Assembly: GCA_944380285.1 (NCBI GenBank)
Contig: CALWGZ010000008.1
Location: 1-64,000, forward strand
Source: an uncultured Christensenellaceae bacterium
GTDB taxonomy: Bacteria; Bacillota; Clostridia; Christensenellales; UBA3700
DNA length: 64,000 nt
Direction of reading: 5' to 3'
Shown here: positions 37,909-39,893 of the stretch, one piece after another
How the letters are laid out: each line of letters begins with the position of its first letter
Position numbering within the stretch: the first letter of the stretch is position 1
Made by a program: the position numbers and the translations under genes
The notes under the pieces: model-generated
Databases searched by the model: none
What the model saw: only the letters and a program-made list of their open reading frames with translations
Told to the model about the DNA's origin: nothing

Positions 37909-38604
37909 ATGAATTTCGACTTTTCGATCATCTTCAACAAGGACGCGCTTGCGACTTTGGGCGAGGCGTACGGCTGGACACTGTTCATAGCCGTCGGCGC
38001 ATTGCTGATCGGCGTCATCTTGGGCACGCTGCTTGCAATCTGCAAAGTCATCCCCAAGACCAACATCGTCGCCAAGATCTTGGACAAGATCTCGTCCGTC
38101 TATGTCGCGATCTTCCGCGGCACGCCGCTCACCGTGCAGCTGTTCATCTTCTACTTCGTCATCTTCGCCGGCGTCACCTTCTTTTCGGCGTCGGTCACGC
38201 CGTACATCATCGCGGTGTTCGGCTTCGGGCTCAACTCGGCGGCTTATGTGTCCGAGATCATTCGCTCGGGCATCCTCAGCATCGACAAGGGACAGATGGA
38301 AGCGGGACGCGCGCTCGGTCTGAGCTACGGCAAGACGATGATGTCCGTCGTACTGCCGCAGGCGGCAAAGAGCATCATCCCCCCGCTCGGCAACGAGGCG
38401 ATCACCTTGGTCAAGGACACGTCGATCGCGCTCGTCATCGGCGTCGCGGAGTTCTTCACCGCGATCAGAGGCATCGTCAACAGGACGTACAACGTCCTCA
38501 CCCCCTACATCTTCGCGGCGGTCGTCTACTTCGTCACCGTGCTGATCATGACGCTGTGCCTCAACAAACTCGAAAAACGTCTTAGGAGGAGCGACGCAAG
38601 ATGA
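37909..38604 (+). CDS. Polar amino-acid ABC transporter permease, HisMQ/GlnP family
   Basis: The 231-residue permease has about five membrane helices and the family's EAA loop, SEIIRSGILSIDKGQMEAGR then ALGLSYGKTMMSVVLPQA, with FRGTPLTVQLFIFYF upstream. It forms the homodimeric channel for the amino acid delivered by the upstream lipoprotein. GAGGGAAT precedes the ATG. Its stop overlaps the ATPase start as ATGA. Confidence 0.95.
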   Translation: MNFDFSIIFNKDALATLGEAYGWTLFIAVGALLIGVILGTLLAICKVIPKTNIVAKILDKISSVYVAIFRGTPLTVQLFIFYFVIFAGVTFFSASVTPYIIAVFGFGLNSAAYVSEIIRSGILSIDKGQMEAGRALGLSYGKTMMSVVLPQAAKSIIPPLGNEAITLVKDTSIALVIGVAEFFTAIRGIVNRTYNVLTPYIFAAVVYFVTVLIMTLCLNKLEKRLRRSDAR

Positions 38605-39893
38605 GCGAACAGATCATTCAACAAAACCCCGTCCTCATCTCCACCCGCGGGCTGACCAAGCGCTTCGGGAGCAAAGATGTTCTCAAAGGCATAGACTGCG
38701 ACATCCGCGTCGGCGAAAAGGTCGCGGTCATCGGTCCTTCGGGCAGCGGCAAGAGCACGTTCCTGCGCTGCCTCAACCTGCTCGAACTGCCGTCGGGCGG
38801 CGTCGTCACTGTGGACGGAGCGGTGCTCTTCCAAAGCGACATGCAAGCCAAAAAGGACGTTTTGGACGCGATCAAGGCGCAGATCAAGGCGTTGAAGTCG
38901 GGCGAAGCCTCTCCCGAGGTCAAGGCGCACCAAGAGGAAGCGGCGGCGCTCAAAGAAGAACTTTTGCACGCTCATGCCGAACTCAAAGACGCCGCGACCA
39001 AGGCAAAGCTCGCCGCGATCAAACTCGCCAAGAAGTCGGGCAGCGTCACCGAAGAAGACGTTCAAGACGCGGTCGCCGCGCGCGAAAAGGCGACGGCGGT
39101 CGTCGCCGAACTCAAAGCACGGCTCTCTGCGGTCAACGCCAAGATCAAGCAAAAGAAAGCGGAGGCGAAAAAGAGCGTCGACGCGGCGGAACTGCAACGG
39201 CTCAACGAAGCCTTGACGCAAGCCAAAGCCGAATACGCAACGGCGAAAAAGGCGCACAACGCGGCAATGCGCAAGACGGGCGCGGTCATCGACGAACACC
39301 GCCGCAACATGGGCATGGTGTTCCAGCACTTCAACCTGTTCAACAACCTGACCGTGACCGAGAACATCACTCTCGCGCCCGTTTCGCTGGGGCTCAAAGA
39401 CCTCGCGGCAAAGCGCAAAGAGCTGCTCAAACGCAAGCTGTTCAAGCACGAGGACGTGACCGAGCAGCTCGCCGCCCTGCCCGACAAGCTGGAGATCATC
39501 GAGAACGCCAAGACCAACGCCAAGCGTCTCTTGGCGCGCGTCGGGCTGCTCGACAAGGCGGACGTCTTCCCGTCCACGCTGTCCGGCGGACAAAAGCAGC
39601 GTATCGCGATCGTCCGTTCGCTCGCGATGAATCCGCGCGTGATGCTGTTCGACGAGCCGACTTCCGCGCTCGACCCCGAGATGGTCGGCGAAGTGCTCGA
39701 AGTCATCAAGGAGCTTGCCGACGAGGGCATGACGATGGTCATCGTCACCCACGAGATGAACTTCGCCAAAGAGGTCGCGACGCGCGTGCTGTTCGTCGAC
39801 GACGGTCAGATCAAAGAGGACGCGCCGCCCGCCGAACTGTTCGGCGACCCCAAAAACGACAGACTCAAAGAGTTCTTGTCCAAGATCCTCTGA
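38601..39893 (+). CDS. Amino-acid ABC transporter ATPase (GlnQ-like) with large coiled-coil insertion
   Basis: The 430-residue protein is a GlnQ/HisP-type ATPase nearly twice the normal ~240. Walker A GPSGSGKST is at residues 45-53, signature LSGGQKQRI at 327, Walker B VMLFDEPTSALDP at 347 and switch VTHEM at 382. Between Walker A and the Q-loop (MGMVFQHFN, Gln 242), where about 45 residues are expected, there are about 190. Residues ~81-232 are a highly charged Ala/Lys/Glu-rich helical insertion with coiled-coil pattern (EEAAALKEELLHAHAELKD, LQRLNEALTQAKAEYATAKK). A second smaller insertion, about residues 270-305, precedes the signature. All catalytic motifs are intact, so it should still be active. 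Codon use matches the neighbours. Confidence 0.95.
   Translation: MSEQIIQQNPVLISTRGLTKRFGSKDVLKGIDCDIRVGEKVAVIGPSGSGKSTFLRCLNLLELPSGGVVTVDGAVLFQSDMQAKKDVLDAIKAQIKALKSGEASPEVKAHQEEAAALKEELLHAHAELKDAATKAKLAAIKLAKKSGSVTEEDVQDAVAAREKATAVVAELKARLSAVNAKIKQKKAEAKKSVDAAELQRLNEALTQAKAEYATAKKAHNAAMRKTGAVIDEHRRNMGMVFQHFNLFNNLTVTENITLAPVSLGLKDLAAKRKELLKRKLFKHEDVTEQLAALPDKLEIIENAKTNAKRLLARVGLLDKADVFPSTLSGGQKQRIAIVRSLAMNPRVMLFDEPTSALDPEMVGEVLEVIKELADEGMTMVIVTHEMNFAKEVATRVLFVDDGQIKEDAPPAELFGDPKNDRLKEFLSKIL

Follow-up and report, generated by a model that had tools for sequence, protein, structure and literature searches.

What could a large helical insertion do in the ATPase subunit of an otherwise ordinary amino-acid importer, and is it real? 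The question is raised by a stretch of 64,000 nucleotides from an uncultured Christensenellaceae bacterium (contig CALWGZ010000008.1, positions 1 to 64,000; "the window" denotes this whole analysed stretch), in which the gene of an ATP-binding cassette (ABC) ATPase carries such an insertion between Walker A and the Q-loop. The nucleotide-binding domains (NBDs) of type I importers are regarded as compact and conserved, and additional terminal domains are where their regulation is commonly looked for. The operon was called a normal three-gene importer in the initial annotation, and Pfam matches of the open reading frames (ORFs) agree, with a substrate-binding protein of family 3, a single permease and the ATPase at the end:

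37011..37829, + strand, substrate-binding protein family 3 (SBP_bac_3; Pfam)
37909..38604, + strand, permease (BPD_transp_1), member of permease clade A (see below), with a 4-base overlap with the ATPase start (Pfam and permease tree)
38601..39893, + strand, ATPase subunit (GlnQ/ArtP-type NBD), 430 amino acids (ORF)

A family 3 binding protein together with a BPD_transp_1 permease marks a polar amino-acid importer. The position of the inserts beside the Q-loop follows from the motifs of the ATPase:

38733..38756, + strand, Walker A GPSGSGKS, residues 45-52 with K51 (sequence, alignment)
38829..39287, + strand, site-1 insertion, residues ~77-229, 147 above standard (break of the profile match to 4yms_J, spacings)
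39315..39326, + strand, Q-loop MVFQ, residues 239-242, the Gln being Q242 (sequence, alignment)
39390..39506, + strand, site-2 insertion, residues ~264-302, 32 above standard (break of the profile match to 4yms_J, spacings)
39579..39593, + strand, signature LSGGQ, residues 327-331 (sequence, alignment)

Walker B (D351/E352) and the switch histidine (H384) are also present, and the Walker A, Q-loop, LSGGQ, D/E and His motifs are invariant across alignment A1, which comprises 37 of 43 long proteins (query included), P0001 among them, so that the nucleotide-binding motifs are indeed intact. Counted inclusively from the Walker A Lys to the Q-loop Gln and from there to the signature, K51 to Q242 spans 192 residues where standard relatives have 45 (+147, close to the ~150 initially claimed) and Q242 to the signature 85 against 53 (+32), whereas the 104 residues from the signature to the protein end have standard length. 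The match to the solved chain 4yms_J is interrupted twice: query residues 16-76, 230-263 and 303-430 are aligned, and ~77-229 and 264-302 oppose just 6 and 7 residues of that chain.

The AlphaFold2 model of the ATPase has the core fold of solved importer ATPases, and within the site-1 insert it contains four ordered helices with a predicted local distance difference test score (pLDDT) of 92:

38841..38900, + strand, predicted helix A, residues 81-100, putative stem (AlphaFold2)
38913..39029, + strand, predicted helix B, residues 105-143, putative arm, C-terminal half net positive in 37/37 (AlphaFold2, alignment)
39051..39173, + strand, predicted helix C, residues 151-191, putative arm, C-terminal half net positive in 37/37 (AlphaFold2, alignment)
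39183..39305, + strand, predicted helix D, residues 195-235, putative stem (AlphaFold2, hhalign)

The helix limits agree between predictions of the whole protein and of the insert alone, and the end of helix D corresponds to the standard helix that precedes the Q-loop strand. The helical nature of the insertion that was first described as a coiled coil is supported by the prediction, yet only helices B and C resemble an antiparallel coiled-coil hairpin (Foldseek matches to SerRS, MacA and SMC heads), while A and D look rather like an older stem. Taken alone, the insert gave generic fold matches, none at a Foldseek E ≤ 0.001, and no Pfam or NCBIfam family above its cut-off; its best PDB profile match (E 5e-4) covers ~100 residues of a long helical protein, a level that is common for coiled coils.

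Where the arm stands can be estimated from the study of FtsE (PMC7468199), which describes three regions that shape the coupling-helix cavity, namely R2 (71-79, alpha2), R3 (86-96, Q-loop) and R4 (101-115, C-terminal alpha3), and gives Q88 as the Q-loop Gln. If residues are counted from the Q-loop Gln, site 1 would enter at the beta5-alpha2 loop, ahead of R2, and site 2 would fall inside R4; by this count onto the published FtsE structure the arm is likely close to the permease and the coupling cavity. According to the same study HisP (PDB 1b0u) bears a beta-hairpin insertion in the same loop (63-72), which is short there and a predicted four-helix arm here. We tentatively propose, as a possible reading, that the 147 extra residues before the Q-loop form a predicted positively charged four-helix arm on the rim of the groove into which the coupling helix of the permease fits, that its positive faces may meet anionic lipid headgroups, and that contact with the membrane surface or the permease would tune how ATP hydrolysis is coupled to import.

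This proposal of a cationic tuning arm is drawn by analogy, because OpuA of Lactococcus lactis is described with a membrane-proximal, positively charged helix-turn-helix on its NBD that modulates the sensitivity to osmotic change (PMC10710835). Both are importer NBDs with added positive helices, predicted ones here, and the likeness observed is one of charge and helix prediction; OpuA differs by its tandem CBS domains and its other substrate family, and the window ATPase gave no Pfam match to a CBS domain at E ≤ 0.001. The helix-turn-helix of OpuA is located upstream of Walker A.

For an anionic surface as partner only the consistent net positive charge would speak. It is positive for the insert in every sequence of alignment A1 (37/37, mean +8.4, range 3-14), at a mean of -0.6 for the remaining NBD, and likewise for site 2 (37/37, mean +4.0); over all 84 loci that were measured and have a site-2 extension (nine of them paralogues), every site-2 segment is positive. 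Within the helices the N-terminal halves are acidic or neutral and the C-terminal halves basic, those of B, C and D each being net positive in 37/37. As control, segments of 159 residues from the same genome were used, with the limits of the SMC and RecN coiled coils set by eye. These coiled coils are negative or neutral (SMC: 68 segments, mean -7.4; RecN: 11 segments, mean -16.7) and none of the 79 segments reaches +8.

The insertion is not confined to the window. Matches were obtained in each of the 13 genomes of the genus, that of the window among them, and 11 contain the full-length form, which is found also in three genomes of another genus of the same family (L011-L013); the 11 loci of the genus, with a single open frame, and the three of the sister genus have intact motifs and the same operon. 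Genome G007 has residues 1-69 and 268-430 at two contig ends and lacks the stretch between them (residues 70-267), where the insert would be. Genome G009 (C1:332645-333121; L033, L054) retains no more of the ATPase than its last 159 residues, beside unrelated sequence, with no permease or binding-protein match within the 4.5 kb read, and this fragment is either a remnant or an assembly join. In a collection of 5.8 billion proteins spacings of 189-215 occur in 42 among the 120 matches listed, and the Walker A to Q-loop spacings of the 43 long proteins fall in clumps (24 at 189, 12 at 191-193 and 7 at 202-215). In four database proteins (P0021, P0022, P0047 and P0048) the N-terminal half of a different short ATPase is joined near the Q-loop to a C-terminal half that is 77-98% identical to P0001; by their sequences they look like present-day recombinants or chimeric contigs.

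That the gene at 38601-39893 itself results from an assembly chimera or a frame error has a negligible probability. The joined halves of those four proteins, which may be chimeric contigs, and the fragment of G009 could be quoted in its favour. Nevertheless, chimerism is rejected because the full-length form is present, in one open frame, in 11 of 13 genus genomes, as well as in three sister-genus genomes and the 42 database proteins listed. The initial annotation had set its claim against such chimerism and against a disordered, unconserved insertion, and the latter does not fit either, as the insert is predicted to be ordered and its architecture is kept in the genus.

The arm is accompanied by a particular permease. 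All 17 ATPases with this arm type in the set compared (14 long ones and the short forms L050, L191 and L190) adjoin permeases of one clade, clade A, which comprises 19 of 110 rows with a support of 100/100; the ATPases beside the remaining two clade-A permeases (L153 and L172) have a site 2 of the 168 type instead. The short forms, from families f7 and f24 with the same permease clade, have just 54-69 extra residues, i.e. room for two helices. In hhalign comparisons helix D of the long insert pairs with the final portion of the f7 form (E 5.8e-5, probability 66%), and this form in turn with L190 (E 3.9e-6, probability 87%). The comparison suggests that A and D may constitute the older stem and that the B-C arm was added later. 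The C-terminal half of the long ATPases groups with L024/L025 (100/98), which have a site-2 but no site-1 insert, and its grouping with the short-arm forms is rejected in the approximately unbiased (AU) test (p 0.009); the N-terminal half tends towards the short-arm forms (95/79), the alternative being not rejected (AU p 0.43). Judged from these trees, the long ATPase is likely a mosaic that arose by recombination near the Q-loop.

A wider comparison covered 118 ATPases of this Clostridia order (109 of the main kind and nine paralogues), taken as all 47 parsable matches of one search and a choice from a second; because loci were picked mostly for long frames, shares of length classes are not frequencies. 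The counts and the ATPase trees exclude fragments (L022, L033, L054, L055) and rows whose motifs could not be parsed (L140, L151, L192). Site-1 spacings (Walker A to Q-loop) were 43-45, 51-58 (paralogues), 66, 99-114, 130, 157-158, 189-194 and 209-210, and site-2 spacings (Q-loop to signature) 53, 63-94, 103-139 and 167-168. The distance from the signature to the end stays within 104-109 in all but two rows, which have 120, and the N-terminus ahead of Walker A is also variable in length. In this order the two loops on either side of the Q-loop form hot spots of length variation. They are likely near the place of force transfer to the permease and carry large inserts of several unrelated kinds: blastp clusters and hhalign distinguish at least three site-1 insert families without detectable mutual similarity, namely the window's arm (whose short forms are those of f7 and L190, the latter linked by hhalign alone), the TPVDPYLH family and the g5 forms.

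The TPVDPYLH family, unrelated to the window's arm, has site-1 spacings of 66-130 and is found at 17 loci in five families of the order (L040-L046, L159, L162, L166, L174, L176, L179, L184, L186, L187, L193). At site 2 a Lys-rich insert of 114-115 residues (spacing 167-168) occurs in the distant families f3, f16, f20 and f24 (L153, L160, L172, L189, L036 and others). When 391 genomes of the class were searched, the 142 matches listed from other orders had frames of ≤ 310 residues, and none among them was of the long form. From a public genome collection 80 named loci were taken, of which 64 were measurable; 44 of 65 frames read 45/53, and a moderate site-2 insert was found outside the order, e.g., at loci titled Mediterraneibacter and Agathobacter. 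The second insertion noted before the signature of the window ATPase is thus present, but it is not peculiar to this protein: by sequence comparison it is older and widespread, also beyond the order. Side by side with related permeases or ATPases, the site-1 lengths form a natural series (45, 99, 114 and 189-210), a ready set for asking how the coupling-helix loops set tightness and regulation of ATP-driven import. One may extend the proposal to the whole order, with the coupling-cavity loops as a modular site at which unrelated helical regulators were grown or swapped, partly by Q-loop recombination, and with the window's arm as an electrostatic membrane sensor that would gate coupling; in this broad form it is unlikely.

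Within the insert the sequence drifts rapidly. Pairwise comparison comprised 91 pairs, with results given for 20: where the core is ~88-91% identical, the insert is mostly 44-58% identical (75% in one pair and 97% in one near-identical pair), and in 11 of the 14 closest pairs its alignment is gap-free. The ratio of nonsynonymous to synonymous substitution rates (dN/dS) is 0.09-0.48 for the insert and 0.04-0.20 for the core in the given pairs where it was computable, dS being mostly saturated. Because identity is lost fast with few gaps and with this dN/dS pattern, length and helicity of the insert appear to be held more tightly than its residues. Besides the DxHRR end, S79, L88, G101, V107, G147 and H219 are invariant in 13 loci; G101 and V107 lie on either side of the A-B turn and H219 within helix D.

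Several observations weigh against the tuning arm. As the insert changes far faster than the core, a strongly conserved contact or binding face is not evident beyond those few residues, and in the only pair with unsaturated dS (L018/L020) the insert has a dN/dS of 0.56, calculated from very few changes. The packing of the helices is just moderately certain because the predicted template modelling score (pTM) of the insert alone is 0.64, and the apparent homology of helix D to the short versions is moderate. In the clade-A permeases the EAA loop is ordinary and the 17 clade-specific residues are found elsewhere. By composition the window ATPase's own insert has a charge of just ~+5, and where site 1 alone has an insert (20 loci, of which 17 belong to the unrelated family and the others are the short forms L050, L191 and L190) the site-1 charge is mixed (-4 to +8). 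The half-helix pattern can also be explained by helix dipoles, although the net charge cannot. Since SMC and RecN are negative while four of six other window proteins (permease, inositol phosphatase, MFS and GH20) have means >0 per 159 residues, with single segments ≤ +10, the insert's charge stands out against the coiled coils of this genome but not against its proteins in general.

The main rival, favoured by the fast drift, is that the inserts represent, for the most part, structural expansion tolerated by exposed loops, with stable helices that fold, do no harm and drift and a length set by packing alone. Quick sequence change at nearly fixed length suits it, as do several unrelated inserts of differing lengths in the same two loops of one order and the acidic or neutral N-terminal and basic C-terminal helix halves, which are expected of lone helices. 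It has more difficulty with the full-length form being kept in 11 of 13 genus genomes, with the confinement to the two Q-loop-flanking loops (plus variable N-termini) at a signature-to-end distance of ~104, and with a net positive insert versus the negative SMC and RecN coiled coils, so that we regard it as somewhat doubtful. Less probable, and in our opinion unlikely, is that the arm docks some partner from the cytosol, be it a regulator protein, RNA or the ribosome, in place of the membrane. The net positive charge would suit RNA, hairpins like B-C are known in RNA- or protein-binding arms (SerRS, MacA, SMC heads), and in the ABC-F protein EttA the arm, which is inserted in NBD1, touches the L1 stalk (PMC8782954). 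That the arm connects the dimer's two ATPase subunits, or adjacent transporters, and steadies or limits their opening appears quite improbable. Long antiparallel helices could span across, and the C-terminal NBD domains of MetN and ModC are reported to regulate those importers (PMC10710835), but here nothing extends beyond the standard C-terminus.

Compared with known systems, the window ATPase differs from that of ArtP or Art(QN)2-type importers (PDB 2olj, 4yms) by the 147 and 32 residues inserted on either side of the Q-loop. With MetN and ModC it shares an extra, there regulatory, domain on an importer NBD (PMC10710835), which is C-terminal in those proteins and internal, before the Q-loop, here; a C-terminal regulatory domain of this type is excluded by the standard 104 residues from signature to end. 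EttA resembles it in having an insertion within an NBD, the mycobacterial arm comprising residues 94-136 (PMC8782954). ABC-F membership is excluded, as tandem NBDs are required and the ATPase frame, which encodes a transporter subunit, has a single one. Judged by motif positions, the EttA arm is presumably comparable with site 2 rather than site 1. SMC, Rad50 and RecN also grow a coiled coil from an ABC ATPase head, and in the known members it leaves the head between Q-loop and signature. In contrast, the main insert lies here before the Q-loop and the gene in a permease operon; membership is rejected by this position and by an SMC_N Pfam score of 31 bits against a cut-off of 40. No named NCBIfam equivalog reaches its cut-off (TcyN PRK11264 270 bits vs 406, GlnQ PRK09493 266 vs 379, HisP 243 vs 466, ArtP 218 vs 369); since the insert splits the match, the substrate name is not fixed.

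No genome-wide expansion of ABC ATPases was seen among the other ABC_tran matches of the genome, since the 21 of 32 that could be parsed have 99-142 residues from the Walker A Lys to the Walker B Asp versus 296 here; one further row with a distance of 79 was set aside as a spurious Walker A. The paralogous ATPase L002 (G000 C6:102760-103662), not among these 21 and measured separately, is also extended (spacings 52/106) and has a permease immediately upstream. Convergent with the importer operon lies a gene for a DUF2779 protein (39986-41515, - strand), which is found within the compared stretch of 7 of 12 clade-A loci, all seven from the window's genus. Upstream, the frame at 33909-34964 (+ strand) encodes a protein that combines a long stretch of repeats rich in Pro, Gln and Glu with a DUF1508 domain at the C-terminus.
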